35,561 bases of DNA from an uncultured Bacilli bacterium (GCA_947626515.1 CANQSL010000010.1:1-35561); one strand, 5' to 3'. Positions 2,769 to 25,403 are shown, counted from the stretch's first letter. Made by a program: numbers and translations. The notes: a model not told the origin generated them from the sequence alone.

Positions 2769-4133
2769 ATGAAAAAGTTATGGTTTTTAATAGTACTTTG
2801 GAGTACTAAATTTGGTTTAGTTTTATGTAAGATTTTTAAAAAAAATGGAACAATGATTGCTGGTAAAGTAGCTTTGAAATTTCAAAGTGATTTTATTAAA
2901 TATTTTAAAGGTATCAATTATGATAAAGTAATATTTATAACTGGTACTAATGGAAAATCAACAACAAATAATATAATTGTTCATACATTAAAAACTGCTG
3001 GTAAGAAAGTAACTACTAATTTAGAAGGAGCTAATCTTATTACTGGTGTTGCAACTGCTTTAATTAAAGATTCTACACTTACTGGTAAAATAAATAGTGA
3101 ATTTTTTGTATTTGAAACAGATGAGAGATATTTAAAGAGAATATATGAAGCTATACCTGCTAAAAATATATGTATAACTAATATTCAAAAAGATCAAGTT
3201 CAAAGAAATGGAGAACCTGATTATATTTATAAAAAAATTAAAGAAGTAATAAATAAAGATGTAAGAATATTTGTAAATAATGAAGAAGCTAGAGCTAAAT
3301 CATTTGAAAAATTTACTGATAATGTTATTTATTATAGTGTTGCTAGAAATGATAAGTCATATGAAAAAACTAGTTTTTATGATGTAACTATGCCTTGTCC
3401 AGTTTGTAATAGCAAAATACATTTTAATTATTACAATATAGATAATGTTGGAGATTTTAAATGTAGTAGATGTGGTTTTAAAAGTGAAAAGAAACCAAAT
3501 TATAAAATATCTAAAATAGATTATAAGAATAATGAATTTATATGTAATAATGAAAAATATTCATATGTATATAGTCAACCATTTTTTATGTATAATTATG
3601 CACTTGCTATAGCAGTATGTAAAGAGTTTAATATAAAATATAGTGATATAAAAGAAGCTTTTAAAACTTTTAAAAATATTGCAGGAAGATTAGAAACTAT
3701 AAAATATAAAACTAAAGAAATAAAGTATATTAGAATGAAACAGGAAAATCCAGAAACATTACAATCTGCTTTTGATTATATTGCAAAAGATAAAAGTAAA
3801 AAGATATTTATGTTGGGATTAGAACAATTAGAAGATTTTAAACCATATTATACTAATACGTTTTATTCTTTTGATTGTAATCTAGATTCATTAATTGATT
3901 CTAATATAGAAAAATATATATGTTTTTCTAAAGCAGTAAGCTATGATACTGCAAATAGATTAATATATGCTGGAGTGCCTAAGGAAAAGATAGTAATACT
4001 TCCAACTGATAGCAATGAAGCTATATTTGAAGAGTTAGATAAAATAGATATAGATAATATTTATTTGATAACTTGGTTACATAAATATGAAGAGTTAATA
4101 AGGGATGTAGCTAATTTAAAAGAGGGTGAATAA
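2769..4133 (+). CDS. MurT-like Mur ligase-family protein (lipid II isoglutaminyl synthase ligase-subunit family)
   Basis: P-loop 'ITGTNGKSTTNNII', Mur ligase 'ICITNIQKDQVQRNGEPDYIY', Zn-ribbon 'CPVC...CSRC', C-terminal DUF1727-like region 'SYDTANRLIYAGVPKEKIVILP'. Confidence 0.88.
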   Translation: MKKLWFLIVLWSTKFGLVLCKIFKKNGTMIAGKVALKFQSDFIKYFKGINYDKVIFITGTNGKSTTNNIIVHTLKTAGKKVTTNLEGANLITGVATALIKDSTLTGKINSEFFVFETDERYLKRIYEAIPAKNICITNIQKDQVQRNGEPDYIYKKIKEVINKDVRIFVNNEEARAKSFEKFTDNVIYYSVARNDKSYEKTSFYDVTMPCPVCNSKIHFNYYNIDNVGDFKCSRCGFKSEKKPNYKISKIDYKNNEFICNNEKYSYVYSQPFFMYNYALAIAVCKEFNIKYSDIKEAFKTFKNIAGRLETIKYKTKEIKYIRMKQENPETLQSAFDYIAKDKSKKIFMLGLEQLEDFKPYYTNTFYSFDCNLDSLIDSNIEKYICFSKAVSYDTANRLIYAGVPKEKIVILPTDSNEAIFEELDKIDIDNIYLITWLHKYEELIRDVANLKEGE

Positions 4134-4871
4134 ATGGAAAAATTAAATATAACTTGGTGTTATCCAGACATATTAAGTTTACATGGCGATCGTGGTAATA
4201 TTATGGCTTTAAAAAAAGTAGCGGAAATGTTAAATATAGAAGTTGAAATAAATAGAATAGATAATTATGATGATCTAATAGATTTTAAAAAAACTGATAT
4301 ATTACTTTTTAATCCAGGAGAATTAAAGACGGTTCCTAATATAATAGAAGCATTAAAAAAACAAATTGATGATTTAAAAGAATATGTTAATAAAAATAAA
4401 GTATTGATTGTAATTGGAACAACTGGGGCTGCTTTTGGAAAAGAGATAGTTAAATTAGATAGTACTAAAATAGAGGGATTAGGATTATTAGATATGGTTA
4501 CTTATGAAAGAGAGAATATTTTAGGCGATGATTTAATTATAAAATTAAAAGATAATGATATTGAGTTAAATGGTAGTCAAATTCAAGTAATAGATACTAA
4601 ATTAGATTCTAATATAGAATTAGCTAAAGTAGAATATGGTTATGGAAATAATGGATATGAAAATAAATTAGAGGGTGCTAAAAATAATAATTTAATATTT
4701 ACTAATATGTTAGGACCTCTTTTTGTAAAAAATCCTTGGTATGCTGAATTATTAATTAAAAAAGCTATGGAAAATAAAAAAGTTAATATTAAAGAAAAGA
4801 TATCTAAAGAGAGTTTTGAGATAGAATATAAATCTTTAGAAGCAATAAAAAAATATAACGAAGAAAAGTAG
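4134..4871 (+). CDS. GatD-like class I glutamine amidotransferase fold protein, apparently without catalytic Cys/His
   Basis: GatD-like 'DILSLHGDRGNIMALKK', 'IEGLGLLDM', 'VEYGYGNNGYENKLEGA', 'LGPLFVKNPWYAELLI'. Starts immediately after the MurT-like stop codon. Confidence 0.85.
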   Translation: MEKLNITWCYPDILSLHGDRGNIMALKKVAEMLNIEVEINRIDNYDDLIDFKKTDILLFNPGELKTVPNIIEALKKQIDDLKEYVNKNKVLIVIGTTGAAFGKEIVKLDSTKIEGLGLLDMVTYERENILGDDLIIKLKDNDIELNGSQIQVIDTKLDSNIELAKVEYGYGNNGYENKLEGAKNNNLIFTNMLGPLFVKNPWYAELLIKKAMENKKVNIKEKISKESFEIEYKSLEAIKKYNEEK

Positions 4872-4878
4872 GTGTATT

Positions 4879-5940
4879 ATGTATCCTGTTGTAGAAATAA
4901 ATATAAATAATATATTAGATAATATAAGTAAAGTTAATTTATTATGTAAAAATAATAATATAAAGCTTTCATTAGTAACTAAGTTATTATCTGATAATGT
5001 ATCTTTAGTTGAAAAAATAGTTAGTACTGGTATAAGTTGTATATGTGATTCTAGAATGGAAAATTTAAAATCATATAAAGATATAGATATTGAAAAGTGG
5101 CTTATTAGATTACCAATGATAAGTGAAATTGAAGATGTAGTTAAATATACTAATGCAAGTTTAAATACAGAAATCTCTACTATAATAGCTTTAAATGAAG
5201 AATCTAAAAAACAAAATAAGATTCATAATATTATTTTGATGTATGAATTAGGTGATTTAAGAGAAGGATGTAGTAAAGAAGAATTAGATTATATAATAGA
5301 AGAAACAAAAAAATTAAGTAATATAAATATTTATGGTATTGGTGTTAATTTAAGTTGTTATGGTGAAATAGTTCCAAATAGTAAAAATATGGATGAATTT
5401 TCTCAATTAGTATCATATTTAGAAAATAAGCATGATATTAAATTTGAGATAGTTTCTGGAGGTAATTCTAGTTCTTATAATTTATTAAAAGAAGAAAAAT
5501 TACCTAAAGTTATAAATAATTTAAGATTTGGTGAGTCTATTTTTTTAGCTAATGTACCATGTTTTGAAAAAAATATAGAGGAATTATATAAAGATAATTT
5601 TATACTAAAAGCAGAAATAATAGAATTAAAAGAAAAACCATCTATTCCTTGGGGAGAAAGAGGAGTATGTAATTCTTTTTCTGAAAGTGGTGTATTTATA
5701 GATAGAGGAATTAGGAAAAGAGCAATAATTGCTTTAGGAAAACAAGATGTTAGATTAGATGGATTAAATCCATTTGACAAAGATATAATTATATTGGGAG
5801 GAAGTAGTGATCACATTATTTTAGATGTTACAGATAGTAAAAATAATTATAAGGTAGGAGACATAATAGAGTTTCATTTAAATTATGCTGCTATTTTAAA
5901 TTTGATGACATCGAAATATGTTAATAGAAAGTTGATATGA
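4879..5940 (+). CDS. PLP-dependent amino acid racemase, ornithine racemase (Orr)-like
   Basis: Alanine racemase N-domain fold with PLP Lys in 'LSLVTK'; 'MYELGDLREG', 'VSGGNSSSY', 'LRFGES', 'DRGIRKRAIIALGKQDV', 'GGSSDHIILDVTDSKNNYKVGDIIEF' match the ornithine racemase-type family. Confidence 0.85.
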   Translation: MYPVVEININNILDNISKVNLLCKNNNIKLSLVTKLLSDNVSLVEKIVSTGISCICDSRMENLKSYKDIDIEKWLIRLPMISEIEDVVKYTNASLNTEISTIIALNEESKKQNKIHNIILMYELGDLREGCSKEELDYIIEETKKLSNINIYGIGVNLSCYGEIVPNSKNMDEFSQLVSYLENKHDIKFEIVSGGNSSSYNLLKEEKLPKVINNLRFGESIFLANVPCFEKNIEELYKDNFILKAEIIELKEKPSIPWGERGVCNSFSESGVFIDRGIRKRAIIALGKQDVRLDGLNPFDKDIIILGGSSDHIILDVTDSKNNYKVGDIIEFHLNYAAILNLMTSKYVNRKLI

Positions 5941-6812
5941 AAAAAATAGATATAATTCAAGCTAGAAGTGATTTGGGAGTGCATGTTGATGGAGCTGATA
6001 TAGGGCCGATAAATATATGTAAAAACTTAGATAGGGGAAAAATAAATGATATATATGTAGTTAATAAAAATTGTGATACTAAAGAGAAAGATAAAAATAA
6101 TTTAAAAAAGAACTTAAGTACTGTTAATTTATTTAATAAAGAATTATATGAAAAAGTAAGTAATATTTTAAAACAGGATAATATACCTCTAACTTTAGGA
6201 GGAGATCATTCTATAGTAATAGCGAGTGCTTTAGCATCTATAAAAAAATATAAGAAATTAGGTATTATATGGGTAGATGCTCACGGAGATTTTAATACAT
6301 TTAAGACTACATTAACTGGAAATATTCATGGACTTCCTTTAGCTGTTATAACTGGATATGAAAAAATGTTATTATCAGAATTTCATGAAGGAAATTATTA
6401 TCCATATGAAAATACAGTAATAATTGGTGCAAGAGATTTAGATGATCTAGAGATAAAAAATTTAAAAGATGCTAATATAACTGTATTTACAACAGAAGAT
6501 ATAAAAAAATATGGAGCGGCTAATATTACAAAAAAAGCAATAAATATCGCTAGTAAAGATACTTTAGGAATACATATAAGTTATGATATAGATGTAATAG
6601 ATCCTATTATTGCACCAGGAGTATCTATTCCTGCAAAGAATGGAATTAATATAGATGAAGCTTATGAAATATTAAATACATTATTAGAAGTTGACAATGT
6701 AAAATCAATAGATGTTGTAGAATATAATCCAATAAAAGATATAGATAATAAAACTTATAAAATAACTTATAATATAGTTAATAAAATAATAGATAAAATA
6801 AATAAAATGTAA
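5937..6812 (+). CDS. Arginase (ureohydrolase family)
   Basis: 'LGGDHSI', 'WVDAHGDFNT', 'TGNIHGLPLAV', 'SYDIDVIDPIIAPGVSIP', 'VVEYNPIKD': Mn-ligand motifs intact. ATGA overlap with the racemase gene. Confidence 0.88.
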   Translation: MKKIDIIQARSDLGVHVDGADIGPINICKNLDRGKINDIYVVNKNCDTKEKDKNNLKKNLSTVNLFNKELYEKVSNILKQDNIPLTLGGDHSIVIASALASIKKYKKLGIIWVDAHGDFNTFKTTLTGNIHGLPLAVITGYEKMLLSEFHEGNYYPYENTVIIGARDLDDLEIKNLKDANITVFTTEDIKKYGAANITKKAINIASKDTLGIHISYDIDVIDPIIAPGVSIPAKNGINIDEAYEILNTLLEVDNVKSIDVVEYNPIKDIDNKTYKITYNIVNKIIDKINKM

Positions 6813-13103: not shown

Positions 13104-13115
13104 GAGGTGAAAAAA

Positions 13116-14189
13116 GTGAAATTTAATATAGGATGGGGAATTACAAATTGCTGTAATATGAATTGTAAATTTTGTTATAGTAAGGAAACTAGACAATTAA
13201 CAAAAGAAATTACTATAAATGATTGGATTAAATTCATAGATGAAAATTATGAAAAAATTGATTCAATTAATTATGGAACTGGAGAAAATGTAATAGATGA
13301 TGATTTTTTTGAATTTATAGAATATGTTAGACACAATTATCCAAAAATTACTCAATCTTTAACAACTAATGGATATTTATACGAAAAAGTAAGTTTAAAT
13401 AAGAGATTTTATAATATTTATAAAGAATGTATTGATGAAGTAGATGTATCTTTAGATTTTTCTGCTCCTGAAAAACATAATTATTTTAGAGGCCAAAATA
13501 AAGCGTATAATTGGGCTATAAATACTTTAGGAATGTTAAAAAAAGATAATAAAAAAGCTACAATAGTTTTTGTTGGAATTGAAGATACTATGTCAAAAGA
13601 AAATATAGATGGGTTATTTAAAATTGCAAAAGCTTACAATGCTTTGCTAAGATTAAATATATATAGACCAGTAAGTCAAGATATGACAATAAATGAGAGA
13701 TTTATTTTAAGTTATAAAACTTTAATAGAAACTTTAGAATATATTAATAATAAATATGAAGTTATTTCTATAAATGATATATTGCTAGGTAACATGTATG
13801 CTAAAGATTCTAATATTGAGGAAAATACTGGTATAAATAGCATAAGAATATTAGCCGATGGTAGTATTTGTCCCTCAACTTACTTGATAAGTGAAAATTA
13901 TAGAAATAAGTTTAATATTAAACAAAAAAATGTTTTATCCACGATAAAATTTGATGATTTTATTGAAGCACCCATACCTAAGGAATGTGAAAAGTGTGAA
14001 ATAAAAAATTCTTGTAGAGGAGGAGTATTTGATAGACGTTTATTATGGTATAACACTCTCTTAAAAAGAGATCCTTATTGTCCTTATGAAAATAATGATA
14101 TTTTAAATAAGGAACAAATTAAAATTTTAAAAAAAGATAGAATTTCAGTACATGATGGTTATTTGCCTACAATATTTTTTAAAAGCTAG
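13116..14189 (+). CDS. Radical SAM protein with SPASM/twitch-type C-terminus
   Basis: 'CCNMNCKFCYSKE' contains CxxxCxxC; C-terminal 'CPSTYL...CEKCEIKNSCRGGVFDRR...DPYC'. GTG 13116 preferred over 13107 because GAGGTG then serves as SD. Confidence 0.88.
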   Translation: MKFNIGWGITNCCNMNCKFCYSKETRQLTKEITINDWIKFIDENYEKIDSINYGTGENVIDDDFFEFIEYVRHNYPKITQSLTTNGYLYEKVSLNKRFYNIYKECIDEVDVSLDFSAPEKHNYFRGQNKAYNWAINTLGMLKKDNKKATIVFVGIEDTMSKENIDGLFKIAKAYNALLRLNIYRPVSQDMTINERFILSYKTLIETLEYINNKYEVISINDILLGNMYAKDSNIEENTGINSIRILADGSICPSTYLISENYRNKFNIKQKNVLSTIKFDDFIEAPIPKECEKCEIKNSCRGGVFDRRLLWYNTLLKRDPYCPYENNDILNKEQIKILKKDRISVHDGYLPTIFFKS

Positions 14190-14198
14190 GGAGGAATT

Positions 14199-15038
14199 AT
14201 GTTAGAAGATTTTAAACCAGAAATTGTAATTATTTTAAGAAGTGATGAAATAATAAAAAAATTTAAGTTAAAACGAGTTACGATAAATACTTCTTTTGGA
14301 CCAGTACATAGATGCTATATAGGATATGTATATAACGTTCCTATATTAATTATTTATGGACGCTTTAATGGTGAAAAGGTTCCTTCTAATCAAATAAATT
14401 ATCAACAAACAATTGAAGTTGTTAAAATAGTTGGAGCAAATAAGCTTATAGGTACATTTGTAGTAGGTGGAATTAATCCAAAAATGCCACAGGGAAGTGT
14501 TTATATATTAGGTGATTTAATTGGCATAGGAAATTATGATATAAAATGGAATCAAACTGTTCCATTTCACAATGCTGAAATGTATGAACCATTTTGCTCA
14601 AATTTATCAAATCAATTATTAGAAGCATCAAAAAAAATGCCATTTCTTGTTAAAGATAAGGCAATATATGTTTGTTTTCATGGATATCCAAGAATAGAAA
14701 CAAAATCTGAACTAGAATTTTATAATAAAATGGGATGGGATATTGTTGGTCAAACTTGTGATCCAGAAGCTACTTTAGCTAGATTAAATCAAATTTGTTA
14801 TGCTGGTGTAGCTGTTCAGATTGATGACCCTAGTGGAAGATTAAATTATATTGAAAATTTAAAACAAAATAAAGAAACTGTTACTTATGTAGAGGATATA
14901 AAATCTTGTAGAGAAAGAACCACAAAAATTATACTACAATTTTTAAAAAATTATAGAAAATATGATTGTGACGTTTGTAATAAAATGATAAGAAAAAATA
15001 AAAATTTTAGAGAGTTTCCAGATTATTTTTATGAATAA
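14199..15038 (+). CDS. Purine nucleoside phosphorylase / MTA phosphorylase-family protein
   Basis: 'YGRFNGEKVPSNQINYQQTIEVVKIVGANKLIGTFVVGGI', 'YEPFCSNLSNQL', 'HGYPRIETKSELEFYNKMGWDIVGQTCDPEATLARLNQICYAGVAV' resemble the MTAP fold and motif order. Confidence 0.8.
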   Translation: MLEDFKPEIVIILRSDEIIKKFKLKRVTINTSFGPVHRCYIGYVYNVPILIIYGRFNGEKVPSNQINYQQTIEVVKIVGANKLIGTFVVGGINPKMPQGSVYILGDLIGIGNYDIKWNQTVPFHNAEMYEPFCSNLSNQLLEASKKMPFLVKDKAIYVCFHGYPRIETKSELEFYNKMGWDIVGQTCDPEATLARLNQICYAGVAVQIDDPSGRLNYIENLKQNKETVTYVEDIKSCRERTTKIILQFLKNYRKYDCDVCNKMIRKNKNFREFPDYFYE

Positions 15039-15050
15039 AGGAGTGATAAT

Positions 15051-15497
15051 ATGAAAGTATTTTTAGCTATGCCTTATTCTCAATTATGTGATTCAAATTA
15101 TAGAGTAAAAGAAAAATATAAAAATTTTTTTGAAAAATTAACATTAAGTTTAAAAGAAATTAATTGTGATTATTTTTTAGCTCACGAAAGAGAAAAATGG
15201 GGAAAGGCTTTTACTTCAAATATAGAAAGTACTAAAATTGATTATGAAACTATTAAAAATGTAGATTTGGTATGCGCTTTACCAGGAGTTCCCGTTTCAG
15301 GAGGGGTACACGTTGAAATAGGATGGGCTTCTGCAAATAAAAAGAGTATGAAAATATTTTTAAAAAAAGGATATAAATATTCACCAATGGTAACTGGTAT
15401 ACATTGTATTACCAACGCAGATTATATTTATTATAATGAAGATTATAGCGATGAATTGATAGAATTAATTTTAAAAGAAATAAAAAATTATAAATAG
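15051..15497 (+). CDS. Nucleoside 2-deoxyribosyltransferase-like protein
   Basis: 'VFLAMPYSQ' N-terminus, 'VDLVCALPGVPVSGGVHVEIGWASANKKSMKIFL' with the conserved Glu region of the family. Confidence 0.75.
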   Translation: MKVFLAMPYSQLCDSNYRVKEKYKNFFEKLTLSLKEINCDYFLAHEREKWGKAFTSNIESTKIDYETIKNVDLVCALPGVPVSGGVHVEIGWASANKKSMKIFLKKGYKYSPMVTGIHCITNADYIYYNEDYSDELIELILKEIKNYK

Positions 15498-15506
15498 GAG
15501 AAAAAA

Positions 15507-16466
15507 ATGTTATATGAGATAGAATTAAAAATAAAAGATTATGCTACATTAAAAGTATTTACAAATTATAAAATTATAAAAGATAATTTAATTAGTGAAA
15601 ATACCGTTATTAAAAGAACAATACCTATAACAAAAATAACATGTAATTTGATAGATAAAAAAAATATTATTTATAAGGATTCCATAATAATATTTAACAG
15701 TAATAAAAAAACAATGTTTTATGATAAAGAAAATAATGTGTCTGTTTTAAATGCTAAAGAAAATGAAATTAGATTTATGGATTTAGTATATATATCGTTA
15801 GCAATGTTTTCAAAATTATTAACAAAACAGAATAAATATTTATTACATAGCTCAGCTTTACTAAATCCATCTAATAAAGCAATAGCATTAGTTGGAGATG
15901 CAAACGCAGGTAAAACAAGTTTAGGATACGAATTGATATCAAATTATAATTATAAATTGATATCTAATGATCATTCTATAATTGGAATTGAGGATAATAA
16001 AGTAAAAATTTTCGGTGGCACTAAAGATATACAAATGAGATTAGGAGCTTGTGAATTATATTTTCCAGAGTTATATAAAAAAATAGAAGAACACCCAGAA
16101 GATAAGTGGAACAAAAAAATTATAATTAATGAAAAAATAAATCAAGATTGTATTTTATCTAACGATAAAGATATATCTGAAATGTCAAATATATATAGTA
16201 TAGTAACAGGAAATTTTAGTGAAAGTTTTTTAAAGAGAAAAGATAAAATAGATGAAGAGCTGTTTTTATATGAAAGTCTGTCAAAAATAATTAAAGGGAC
16301 TTATAATTATATTACTGGATTTGAATATCCAATGCCTTCTATGGAAACGGAGGAAATTTTAAATAATTTATTTAAGTTATGTAAAACTATATCTGATCAA
16401 TGTAAAGTTTATGAAGCAAAAGGCTCTATTAAATGCTTAGCAAAGGTGTTGAGTAAACAATGCTAA
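15507..16466 (+). CDS. HPr kinase-like P-loop ATPase
   Basis: 'LLHSSALL...AIALVGDANAGKTSLGYELI...YKLISNDHSIIGIED' Walker A and HPrK-like motif order. Confidence 0.7.
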   Translation: MLYEIELKIKDYATLKVFTNYKIIKDNLISENTVIKRTIPITKITCNLIDKKNIIYKDSIIIFNSNKKTMFYDKENNVSVLNAKENEIRFMDLVYISLAMFSKLLTKQNKYLLHSSALLNPSNKAIALVGDANAGKTSLGYELISNYNYKLISNDHSIIGIEDNKVKIFGGTKDIQMRLGACELYFPELYKKIEEHPEDKWNKKIIINEKINQDCILSNDKDISEMSNIYSIVTGNFSESFLKRKDKIDEELFLYESLSKIIKGTYNYITGFEYPMPSMETEEILNNLFKLCKTISDQCKVYEAKGSIKCLAKVLSKQC

Positions 16467-18025
16467 AGAAAAAAATAATTTTAACTACTTTATCTCCAAA
16501 AAGTCATAGAACTTCAGAAGAAAATTTGGGAATTGAATATTTAAAATCTTCTTTATTAAAAGAACACTTTGAAGTAGAAATAATTGATGCTTGGCTTAAT
16601 GAATATGATGTAGAAACAGTTTATGAAAAAATAATCAAAGAAAAAGATAATATTTTATTTATAGGAATATCATCTTATATGTCTAATACAAAACCAACTG
16701 TTGAATTAATAAACAAGCTTAAAGAAACCGATTCTAATATTATTATTGCTTGTGGGGGATTTGGTCCTACTTTTTATCCAATAGATTATTTAAAAGCTGG
16801 TGCTGATTACATATTAAGAGGTGAAGGTGAAAAATCTATATGTGAGTTGGCTAAGTGTATAAATGAAAGTCAAACACCATACGAAGTTAAAAATATAGGA
16901 TATATAGATAAAGAAAATAAAGTAAAACTTAATGATATGGAATGTTTAAATAATGATTTAGATTCATTACCTTTTCCAAGTAGAGATACTATGAGTGTAG
17001 TATTAAATAAAAAATCGACAGTTAATATGATAACTTCTAGAGGATGTTCTGGAAATTGTGAATTTTGTTCTGTTATATCTTTCTTTCGTTTAAGTGATGG
17101 AAAGATATGGAGGACAAGAAGCATAAAAAATATAGTTGATGAAATAGAAATTCTTTATAAGCAAGGTGTAAAATATATAAAAATGGTCGATGACTCTTTT
17201 ATTGATGGAATAAGAGATGAAAAATGGTGTGAAGAATTTGCTGATGAAATAGAAAGAAGAAACATAAAAGTTAAATTGAGAGGACAAATTCGTGCTGATA
17301 AGGTGAATGATTCTATATTATTTAATTTAAAAAGAGCTGGATTTTTTTCATTTGCTTGTGGGATAGAAAATGGTTCACAAACAGCATTGACAAGAATGAA
17401 CAAAAAAGCCACGTTGGCAGATAATAAAAAAGCTTTGGATTTATTTAAAAAATATGGATATATAATACAAATGGGATATATATTATTTGATAAAGAAACA
17501 ACTTATGAAGAATTAGTAGAAAATTATAATTTTATGGTGGAATATGATTTTGCAATAACAAAAGGGATTTTTTCAGAAATGTTTTCAGCAGAAGGAACTA
17601 GTTTAAATAAAAAGTTAAGAGAAGAAAATTCATTGCAAGAAGGAGATTTTATCACTAATAATAATAAATATAAAATAGATGATGAAGTTGTTAATAAAAT
17701 TTATTTGTGTTTAAAAAAGTGGCATAAGAGCCATAGCAAAATTTATGATATGACGATTGATCCGTTGACTGCTCCAAAAGCAATATCAAAAGAAGCAATG
17801 AAAGAATTTTATGATTATGCTATGGAATTAAAAAGAGAAGATTTGATTTTATTTAAAAAAATATTGATGCTAGCTAAAGATAAATCCTTAATAAATCTTG
17901 ATCAATTTATAAATGAATATATTTTAAATAAAAAGGGTTATTATGAAATGATAGAGGAAAAAGTAAAAAAATTATATAAAAAAAACGAACTTTTTTATAA
18001 TGCTCAGACAAACCCATTTATTTAA
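16460..18025 (+). CDS. B12-binding-type radical SAM protein
   Basis: N-terminal Rossmann-like domain 'LFIGISSYMSNTKPTVELI...IIACGGFGPTFYPIDYLKAGADYILRGEGE'; 'TSRGCSGNCEFCSV' CxxxCxxC; 'CGIENGSQTALTRMNK'. 7-nt overlap with the preceding gene. Confidence 0.88.
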   Translation: MLKKKIILTTLSPKSHRTSEENLGIEYLKSSLLKEHFEVEIIDAWLNEYDVETVYEKIIKEKDNILFIGISSYMSNTKPTVELINKLKETDSNIIIACGGFGPTFYPIDYLKAGADYILRGEGEKSICELAKCINESQTPYEVKNIGYIDKENKVKLNDMECLNNDLDSLPFPSRDTMSVVLNKKSTVNMITSRGCSGNCEFCSVISFFRLSDGKIWRTRSIKNIVDEIEILYKQGVKYIKMVDDSFIDGIRDEKWCEEFADEIERRNIKVKLRGQIRADKVNDSILFNLKRAGFFSFACGIENGSQTALTRMNKKATLADNKKALDLFKKYGYIIQMGYILFDKETTYEELVENYNFMVEYDFAITKGIFSEMFSAEGTSLNKKLREENSLQEGDFITNNNKYKIDDEVVNKIYLCLKKWHKSHSKIYDMTIDPLTAPKAISKEAMKEFYDYAMELKREDLILFKKILMLAKDKSLINLDQFINEYILNKKGYYEMIEEKVKKLYKKNELFYNAQTNPFI

Positions 18026-22203: not shown

Positions 22204-24612
22204 ATGAAAATTATTGCGATTGATGGTCCTAGTGGTGTAGGTAAAGGTGCTATAGCTAATTTGTTAGCAGAAAAGCTCAATTTTGAAAGACTTGATACAG
22301 GAGCTGTTTATAGATGCGTTACTTTACTTTGTATTGAAAATAATATAACTTTAAAAGAAGAAGATAAGATAATACATATAGCTAATAATTTAAATTTAGA
22401 AATAAAAGATAATGAGTTTTTTTTGAATAATAGAAATGTTTCTAAAAGAATAAGGGCTAAAGATGTAAGTGATATGGTGACTGAAGTTTCATCTATAGTA
22501 GAAGTAAGAAATATATTATCGTCAATTTTTAGAAATTTTGTAAAAGATAAAAATATAGTTGTTGATGGTAGAGATACAACAACTGCTTTATTTAAAGATG
22601 CCTATTTAAAATTTTATTTAGATGCTAATATGGATACAAGAGTTAAAAGAAGATATAATCAATCAATTGCTAATAATATAGATATTACATTTGATGAAGT
22701 AATTGACAATATTGGTAAGAGAGATTATAATGATACACATAAAAAAGTTGGTAAATTAATTAAATCAGATGATTCTATATATATAGATACATCGTATTTA
22801 AGTGAAGAACAAGTAATAAAAGAAATGTTAAAATTTATAGGAAGTGATAACGTGAATTTAAAAGATTTATACATAAAATATTTTGAAGATTTGGGACATA
22901 GACAAATACCGTCTGCACCAGTTGTGCCCGAAAATGATCCTTCTGTATTATTTAATACTGCTGGTATGCAACCTTTGATTCCTTATTTAATGGGAGAAGT
23001 TCATCCTTATGGAACAAGATTAGTAGATTATCAAAAATGTATTAGAACGAATGATTTAGATAATATAGGAGATACTTATCATCATACTTTTTTTGAAATG
23101 CTTGGTAATTGGAGTTTAGGAGATTATTTTAAAGAAGAGAGTATTACCTATAGTTTTAATTTTTTAACAAAAGTTTTAAATATTCCAGTTGAAAGATTAG
23201 CGGTAAGTGTATTTAAAGGAAATGAAAAGATAGAAAAAGATATAGAAACAAAAAAAATATGGCTTAGTTTAGGTATAAGTGAAAATAGAATACAAGAATT
23301 ATCTGATAATTTTTGGATAGCTGGAGATACTGGACCATGTGGACCCGATACTGAAATATTCTATTTTAGAAGTAATGATGAAATTCCAGAAAACTTTGAT
23401 TCAGAAGATGAAAGATGGGTTGAAATATGGAATAATGTATTTATGCAATATAATAAAGATAAAGATGGTAATTATAATGAACTTCCTAAAAAGAATGTCG
23501 ATACTGGAATGGGTGTTGAAAGAGTTGTTTCAATTTTAGAAGGAGTAGATGATAATTATTTATCTTCTATATGGAAAAGTACTATTTTTTTAATAGAAAA
23601 TATATCTAATAAAAAATATGTAGGCAATGAAGTAAGTATGAGAATTATTGCTGATCATATTAGAACTTCAGTATTTATTATTGCAGATCCGTCTGGAATT
23701 AAACCAAGCAATACAGATCAAGGATATATATTAAGAAGACTTATTAGACGTGCAATAAGACATGCAAAAAATTTAGATATAGATATATCTTCTAATTGGG
23801 AAGAGCAAATTGCTTTAAATATTATTGAAGAATATAAAAAATATTATAATGAATTAGAAGAAAATAAAGATATTGTTATAGAAGTTTTAAAAAATGAAAA
23901 AATAAAATTCAATAGAACTTTGGAAAAGGGTTTAAAAGAATTTGTCAATATAGTTAATAGATTAGAAAGCAATAAATTAGAAAAAGATGATGCATTTAGA
24001 TTATATGATACTTATGGATTTCCTATAGAATTAACAGTAGAATTATCTAAAGAGAGAAACATTGAAGTAGATGTAGAAGGATTTAAAGAAAAATTTAAGG
24101 CACATCAAGAATTATCTAGGGCAAATTCTCAGGCTAAATTTAAAGGTGGTCTTGCTTCAACTGGAGAGATTGAAACTAAATATCATACTGCAACACATCT
24201 TTTAAATGCAGCTTTAAAGAAAGTCATTAATAAAGATGTTCATCAAAAGGGAAGCAATATTACAAGTGAAAGAATGCGTTTTGATTTTTCGTGCGATCAT
24301 AAATTAACGGATGAAGAAAAAAAACAAACAGAAGAATTAGTAAATAAGTGGATAGATGAAGATTTAGTTGTAACAAAGGAAGAGATGGCTAAAGAAGAAG
24401 CTTTAAAAAGTGGTGCAGAATGTATGTTTATAGAAAAATATCCTGATATTGTTACCGTATATAGTATAGGAGATGTTTCAAAAGAACTTTGTGGAGGACC
24501 ACATGTTAAGAGTACAAAATGTTTAGGTCATTTTAAAATTATTAAAGAAGAAGCATCATCAAGTGGAGTAAGAAGAATAAAAGCTATTTTAGAATTTGAC
24601 AAAACAGCTTAA
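22204..24612 (+). CDS. Fusion protein: cytidylate kinase (approx. aa 1-216) + alanyl-tRNA synthetase lacking the C-terminal C-Ala domain (approx. aa 217-802)
   Basis: Cmk 'IAIDGPSGVGKGAIANLLAEKLNFERLDTGAVYR', 'VVDGRDTTTALF', 'RDYNDTHK'; AlaRS 'LFNTAGMQPLIPYLMG', 'YHHTFFEMLGNWSLGDYFK', 'IADHIRTSVFIIADG-like', editing 'HTATHLLNAAL' and 'CGGPHV'. One uninterrupted frame. Confidence 0.93.
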   Translation: MKIIAIDGPSGVGKGAIANLLAEKLNFERLDTGAVYRCVTLLCIENNITLKEEDKIIHIANNLNLEIKDNEFFLNNRNVSKRIRAKDVSDMVTEVSSIVEVRNILSSIFRNFVKDKNIVVDGRDTTTALFKDAYLKFYLDANMDTRVKRRYNQSIANNIDITFDEVIDNIGKRDYNDTHKKVGKLIKSDDSIYIDTSYLSEEQVIKEMLKFIGSDNVNLKDLYIKYFEDLGHRQIPSAPVVPENDPSVLFNTAGMQPLIPYLMGEVHPYGTRLVDYQKCIRTNDLDNIGDTYHHTFFEMLGNWSLGDYFKEESITYSFNFLTKVLNIPVERLAVSVFKGNEKIEKDIETKKIWLSLGISENRIQELSDNFWIAGDTGPCGPDTEIFYFRSNDEIPENFDSEDERWVEIWNNVFMQYNKDKDGNYNELPKKNVDTGMGVERVVSILEGVDDNYLSSIWKSTIFLIENISNKKYVGNEVSMRIIADHIRTSVFIIADPSGIKPSNTDQGYILRRLIRRAIRHAKNLDIDISSNWEEQIALNIIEEYKKYYNELEENKDIVIEVLKNEKIKFNRTLEKGLKEFVNIVNRLESNKLEKDDAFRLYDTYGFPIELTVELSKERNIEVDVEGFKEKFKAHQELSRANSQAKFKGGLASTGEIETKYHTATHLLNAALKKVINKDVHQKGSNITSERMRFDFSCDHKLTDEEKKQTEELVNKWIDEDLVVTKEEMAKEEALKSGAECMFIEKYPDIVTVYSIGDVSKELCGGPHVKSTKCLGHFKIIKEEASSSGVRRIKAILEFDKTA

Positions 24613-24625
24613 AATATGCTATACT
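24596..24625 (+). promoter_or_regulatory. Strong putative promoter: TTGACA (24596-24601), 18-nt spacer, TATACT (24620-24625)
   Basis: Perfect -35 consensus inside the 3' end of the cmk-alaS gene and near-consensus -10. Confidence 0.6.
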
Positions 24626-24668
24626 ATCACCCGTTATAGAAAAAAAGGGGTTTATAAAAAGTGATTTA

Positions 24669-24697
24669 ATACTCATTTCTATATGAGTATTTTTTTA
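24669..24697 (+). terminator. Rho-independent terminator/attenuator
   Basis: ATACTCAT-TTCTAT-ATGAGTAT stem followed by TTTTTTT. Confidence 0.8.
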
Positions 24698-24719
24698 TTA
24701 AAGAATATTAGGGGGATTT

Positions 24720-25403
24720 ATGTTAGAAGAATTTAAAGATTGTTTGCTTAAATTAAATTTAGATAAAGATAAAATTAATATTTTACTTGCAGATTTAAGT
24801 AATGTTTTAAAGGATAAAGTATTTAATTTAAATGAGTTATCAACTTATTTATTAAGGGCATCTTTGGGAATTAATAAAATTTCTACATATACTGAGTTAT
24901 CAAAAGAACTAAATATAAAAGAAGAATATCTTAAATCAATTGTAAAAAGTTCTTTATATAAACTAATTAGAGTTTTGTCAAAAAAAGAAAAAAAATATAT
25001 AACGATTTTTGATATTGATGAATCTAAAATAGATTTAAAAAATAAATCTATTGAAATATTAGTTATTTCTGATGAATTGTATTATAAATTAGTAGGTGAT
25101 GGATTTGTTACTGTAAATGATATTGTAAGTTGTAATAAATCTTATTTTAAAAGATATGGTAGTGAATATAAAGAATTATTTTCTCATGTTTATAGCTATA
25201 ATCTTAAATTTATAGATGATATAGATATAAATAAATCTTTTATTTTAAATATGGATATAGATACTTTAGGATTAAGTGATTATGTAATAGCAAAGTTAAA
25301 AAATAATGGTATTTGTACAGTTAGAGATCTTATTTTAGATAAAGAAAATAGAGAAAATGAAGAAGTTAAATATTGTTTAAATAAACTAAATTTAAAATTA
25401 TAG
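24720..25403 (+). CDS. Hypothetical protein with C-terminal helix-hairpin-helix/alpha-CTD-like motif
   Basis: ORF with SD (GGGGG); 'DIDTLGLSDYVIAKLKNNGICTVRDLIL' resembles an RNAP alpha-CTD HhH segment. Confidence 0.55.
   Translation: MLEEFKDCLLKLNLDKDKINILLADLSNVLKDKVFNLNELSTYLLRASLGINKISTYTELSKELNIKEEYLKSIVKSSLYKLIRVLSKKEKKYITIFDIDESKIDLKNKSIEILVISDELYYKLVGDGFVTVNDIVSCNKSYFKRYGSEYKELFSHVYSYNLKFIDDIDINKSFILNMDIDTLGLSDYVIAKLKNNGICTVRDLILDKENRENEEVKYCLNKLNLKL

Follow-up and report, generated by a model that had tools for sequence, protein, structure and literature searches.

A MurT-GatD subfamily without glutaminase residues, found in an operon with an ornithine-racemase-type gene and an arginase gene in an uncultured Bacilli bacterium

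A tight operon of four genes

The window analyzed here is a stretch of 35,561 nucleotides from the genome of an uncultured, gut-dwelling Bacilli bacterium. It carries a tight operon at positions 2769-6812, formed by a murT-like gene, a gatD-like gene, orr and an arginase gene, all on the plus strand. The murT-like gene (2769..4133) encodes a 454 aa Mur ligase with a zinc ribbon, and the gatD-like gene (4134..4871) a 245 aa protein with the GatD fold and no glutaminase residues. We call class i the MurT-GatD subfamily to which the pair belongs, and in which GatD has lost the catalytic Cys and His. The product of orr (4879..5940, 353 aa) is an ornithine-racemase-type PLP enzyme, and that of the last gene (5937..6812, 291 aa) an arginase with the metal motifs GGDHS, DAHGDFN and SYDIDVIDP. 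The TAA codon of the murT-like gene abuts the ATG of the gatD-like gene (4133/4134), a 7-nt gap separates the latter from orr, and orr and the arginase gene overlap in ATGA. The four coupled genes described in the initial annotation are therefore exact in coordinates and junctions, and their identities are backed by Pfam and NCBIfam matches for all four products.

The murT-like product matches MurT_C (2.6e-14) and Mur_ligase_M (4e-9) in Pfam. The gatD-like product matches GATase_3 just below the cut-off (2e-5) and NCBIfam GatD at 7e-25. The orr product matches the Orr model NF040742, known from Clostridia ornithine racemases, over its full length (8.8e-133, 443 bits for a cut-off of 480), and the arginase matches PF00491 (2e-56) and TIGR01229 (206 bits for a cut-off of 228). 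Because the last two proteins score under the NCBIfam cut-offs, their exact substrates are not certain. MurT and GatD also fall short of their NCBIfam equivalog cut-offs (165 of 800 and 88 of 450 bits), which is a weak test since the canonical-looking pair of locus L054 fails likewise.

No riboswitch or other RNA was found in the window with Rfam, and promoter-like matches in the window occur at chance level only. Just upstream of the operon, on the minus strand (2340-2660), broken frames resemble on reading the end of ClpX. Elsewhere in the window, a cluster at 13107-18025 contains a phosphorylase-superfamily gene and two radical SAM genes, of which one has a B12 domain; two further genes of the cluster read as HprK-like and, for the small one, as nucleoside-transferase-like. 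A single 802-aa frame at 22204-24612 reads as a fusion of cytidylate kinase with a part resembling alanyl-tRNA synthetase.

A Mur ligase with rebuilt loops and a pseudo-glutaminase partner

The window MurT combines a Mur ligase middle domain, MurT_C and an intact P-loop (TGTNGKST, 2940..2963, residues 58-65), and lacks the UDP-binding N-terminal domain. Its homology to MurT spans the full length, and MurT is the first match of its predicted structure (TM 0.5-0.72). Two loops are class-specific. The first, KQENPETL (3738..3761, residues 324-331), takes the place of the canonical K--NPAG loop and is longer by two inserted residues; KQENPET is invariant across 46 aligned class-i members. The second, PYYTNTFYSFDC (3843..3878, residues 359-370), stands in place of the DNAADGRDTSWIYD region, where S. 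aureus MurT has its catalytic Asp349; the window protein has EDFKPYYTNTFYSFD instead. The Asp349 of the DNAADGRD motif is absent from the window MurT, where EDFKPYYTNTFY is found and a single Asp aligns only across a gap. In S. aureus this residue completes the catalytic triad, and the D349N variant is inactive in vitro (PMC6113224). Among the 46 sequences 49 MurT columns are invariant, including the P-loop, E116, D118, E119, the zinc cysteines and KQENPET. As judged from these alignments, class-i MurT is a ligase that keeps its predicted ATP site and in which two loops are rebuilt.

Alignment of the window GatD with solved GatD proteins places Gly95 (codon 4416..4418) at the position of the catalytic Cys94, and Leu193 (codon 4710..4712) at that of the catalytic His189 (S. 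aureus numbering). The degeneration of GatD noted in the initial annotation is thus borne out, and it extends to the whole class: in a MAFFT alignment the Cys94 equivalent is found in 0 of 81 readable class-i GatD proteins (Gly 68, Ala 7, Ser 5, Asp 1) and that of His189 in 0 of 80 (Leu 75, Val 4, Gln 1). In the S. aureus protein, glutamine-dependent amidation is lost with C94G, and there is no glutaminase activity once Cys94 or His189 is changed to alanine (PMC6085368). The gatD gene is under purifying selection, with dN/dS of 0.05-0.2 in close pairs. The predicted structure of the window GatD (pLDDT 96) has GatD as its best match, with TM 0.86-0.89 to 6gs2/6h5e. Class-i GatD is a pseudo-glutaminase whose fold is retained under selection, and not one decayed copy.

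The pair resembles the MurT/GatD isoglutaminyl synthase of S. aureus and S. pneumoniae in gene arrangement, folds, P-loop, zinc ribbon and truncated N-terminus. It differs by the missing GatD Cys and His, the replaced MurT Asp motif and the two-residue loop insertion, and its operon adds a racemase and an arginase.

Distribution of the subfamily and of its neighbours

Searching GTDB species genomes with the MurT of the window as query yielded 80 loci, with gatD behind murT in nearly all of them. In the MurT tree, class i is a single clade (100%) and its branch is long. Class-i MurT/GatD is a coherent and widely shared subfamily, of which we found no description in the literature searched. Tandem class-i murT-gatD pairs from different tree branches are present in Mogibacterium and relatives (L138, L139, L142, L143).

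In 20 of the 80 loci orr follows gatD directly; with the window this makes 21 operons, spanning Bacillota, Coriobacteriaceae and Propionibacteriaceae; the adjacency is not unique to this genome. The 21 operon Orr proteins form a single clade (100/100), and the 22 other Orr proteins compared fall outside it; the clade is separate from the high-scoring Orr of the order that contains the Mogibacterium locus, although all belong to the same family. MurT and Orr distances are correlated (Mantel r 0.91, compared with 0.90 for GatD and MurT; 0/5000 permutations as high), but the clade outweighs this correlation, since related species inflate such values. Recurring adjacency, a single operon Orr clade and co-divergence with MurT uphold the link to an ornithine-type racemase that had been claimed from the window. 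The operon racemase belongs with the MurT/GatD pair. No relative of it was found by sequence in the PDB. Co-occurrence of Orr and class-i MurT at the genome level was not retained as evidence. Of the 197 genomes in the order of the Mogibacterium locus, 161 have Orr, including all nine with class-i MurT but also most of those without, which makes the comparison uninformative.

One strongly supported subclade of 12 members, with the motif FYF[FWY]DC, has no adjacent Orr (L039, L080, L083, L088, L091, L103, L110, L112, L119, L121, L145 and L149). No strong Orr match was found in the seven genomes of this FYF subclade that were searched (L080, L083, L088, L091, L103, L110, L119), nor in genome G105, a member of the window host's family. 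Two FYF loci (L039, L080) carry an alanine-racemase-type gene and a flippase-like gene just upstream.

The arginase gene lies directly downstream of orr in six operons, the window included. Besides the window, L071, L072, L073, L075 and L076, each from a different genome, have the full murT-gatD-orr-arginase order, and with the 20 murT-gatD-orr loci this shows that the arrangement is not accidental; in L081 the arginase gene is upstream and divergent. Support in the arginase tree (87/91) is too weak to show that this gene moved with the other three.

The operon is located on contig C10 of a 1.37-Mb genome that is 95.6% complete, in a family of small genomes. Orr is found in one of 145 genomes of this family, and among its other sampled members a close murT-gatD (58%) is present in G105 alone (nearest sequence L080). 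On this distribution, the host probably acquired the operon horizontally. Base composition does not mark the operon as foreign (22.9% GC versus 24.8%), so that any transfer would be old or from a similar genome. A second murT-gatD pair, sought in the host as a canonical one, is indeed present (G000:C3 ~23315-25251; L003 8316-10252), but it is not canonical: its GatD lacks both Cys and His, and its MurT lacks the P-loop (GTSNKNE). Other members of the host family with a MurT relative mostly have a different Cys-less pair, class ii, with TGNS or TGNA and IGP/LGP in GatD and TGSSGKGS in MurT. The congener G086 (L051) retains TGSSGKGS in its class-ii MurT copy, and presumably the host could do without its old class-ii pair, now decayed, once it had the new operon. 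Within the family, L040-L053, L055, L057 and L058 carry this second kind of Cys-less GatD, with MurT mostly K-x-E-N, and the kind was apparently inherited vertically. Common to the Cys-less kinds are two residues inserted into the canonical KNPAG loop.

A candidate route to aminoacylated D-glutamate

The best single explanation, for which we see slightly better than even chances on this sequence evidence, is that the operon serves to attach D-ornithine rather than ammonia, in an ATP-dependent reaction, to the alpha-carboxyl of D-Glu in a lipid-linked precursor. From their families, arginase would convert arginine to L-ornithine and the Orr-type racemase would produce D-ornithine from it; the adjacency of the two genes points to ornithine as the amine, in the D form made by Orr. 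Like MurT, the ligase would activate the D-Glu alpha-carboxyl of the lipid-linked stem peptide with ATP, and an amino group of D-ornithine would attack the acyl phosphate in place of ammonia, with GatD as a non-catalytic partner shaping or closing the amine site. The product would be D-Glu bearing D-ornithine on its alpha-carboxyl, as a branch that stays free or becomes a cross-bridge. Such a Mur ligase can take an amino acid, since S. aureus MurT can stand in for MurE in vitro and add L-Lys to a D-Glu carboxyl (PMC3266927). In Negativicutes (Selenomonas, Veillonella), putrescine or cadaverine is placed on the alpha-carboxyl of D-Glu (PMC10628300). This lipid-linked polyamination resembles the proposed reaction in its non-ammonia amine; it differs in that the amine is not an amino acid, and no identified ligase for it was found in the literature searched.

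The initial annotation had proposed a ligase coupling D-ornithine. The non-ammonia amine is supported, whereas D-ornithine itself is not established. As the FYF subclade is without Orr, D-ornithine cannot be the amine throughout the subfamily, and class-i ligases must use another as well. We put forward more tentatively, at a little under even chances, a broader proposal: the whole subfamily, with its pseudo-glutaminase GatD, would have switched nucleophile from ammonia to amino acids and would provide the missing genetic basis for aminoacylation of the D-Glu alpha-carboxyl (bridging in some lineages), the amino acid being D-ornithine in the clades with Orr operons.

MurE bears on both the fate of the branch and the first alternative. 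The MurE proteins of the window host and of seven clade-A relatives (L071-L073, L075, L076, L079, L124) carry DNPR, an mDap-type motif, and that of L081 carries TDPR. In clade A murE is located elsewhere, whereas in several clade-B loci a murE-like gene lies beside murT (L082, L108, L113, L118, L127, L129, L136), with ASPR in place of DNPR, or ACPK in L113; this ligase possibly introduces another amino acid at position 3. The position of murE in clade B ties the set to stem-peptide synthesis. It also supports a different reading, in which D-ornithine (or L-ornithine) is supplied to MurE for position 3 instead of mDap, while MurT-GatD has a separate role on residue 2. Neither DapB nor DapF was found in the 95.6% complete host genome, which would fit, as would the MurE of Thermotoga maritima, which adds D-Lys (PMC3829189), and the match of the T. 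maritima genome, used as a control, to the Orr model. We nevertheless hold this reading to be unlikely, as clade-A murE is elsewhere and encodes DNPR, and Orr co-diverges with MurT from a position directly behind gatD.

By definition, the bridge of a group-B wall begins at the D-Glu alpha-carboxyl; to our knowledge, mDap does not occupy position 3 in the classical walls of this group, and we know of no wall chemistry for the host or for clade-A organisms. Paramicrobacterium has a group-B wall, of type B2, with D-ornithine (PMC10757982). The wall proposed here would share the D-ornithine, but the MurE motif in the host and in clade A is of the mDap type. The group-B cross-bridge that had been claimed is thus not established, DNPR being of mDap type even though DapB and DapF were not found. 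D-ornithine as a decoration fits equally well, and the cross-bridge is one possible outcome. The host has one FemAB-type transferase.

It is also improbable that the pair is an ammonia-dependent isoglutaminyl synthase, with a purely structural GatD, that uses the free ammonium abundant in the gut while Orr and arginase serve elsewhere. Free ammonia still serves S. aureus MurT with GatD C94G in vitro, leaving ammonia-dependent lipid II amidation unaffected (PMC3266927), which speaks for such an enzyme and counts against the D-ornithine reading. However, the MurT Asp motif has been rebuilt too, with invariant new residues, a dedicated Orr clade is co-inherited, and arginase yields urea and not ammonia. 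Less probable still is another amine (D-Lys, putrescine or another diamine), with Orr acting as a broad basic-amino-acid racemase. The Orr score under the model cut-off, the FYF clade without Orr, two of whose members have the upstream alanine-racemase-type gene, and the polyaminated D-Glu of Negativicutes would agree with it; against it, six operons pair Orr with arginase, which points to ornithine, and the operon has no decarboxylase. Ligation of an amino acid to an acceptor outside peptidoglycan is very improbable, given the full-length MurT homology and the murE-like gene beside murT in clade B.

Walls with amino acids or diamines on the D-Glu alpha-carboxyl have been known for decades. 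We found in the searchable literature no gene that attaches them, and the operon, for which attachment of D-ornithine is our preferred reading, is a concrete candidate for this step. Two carriers, Mogibacterium kristiansenii WCA-MUC-591-APC-4B and Collinsella sp. AK_207A, are recorded as strains. Annotation of a gene pair as MurT/GatD does not imply D-isoglutamine, which bears on the prediction of wall structure and on work with MurT/GatD inhibitors.
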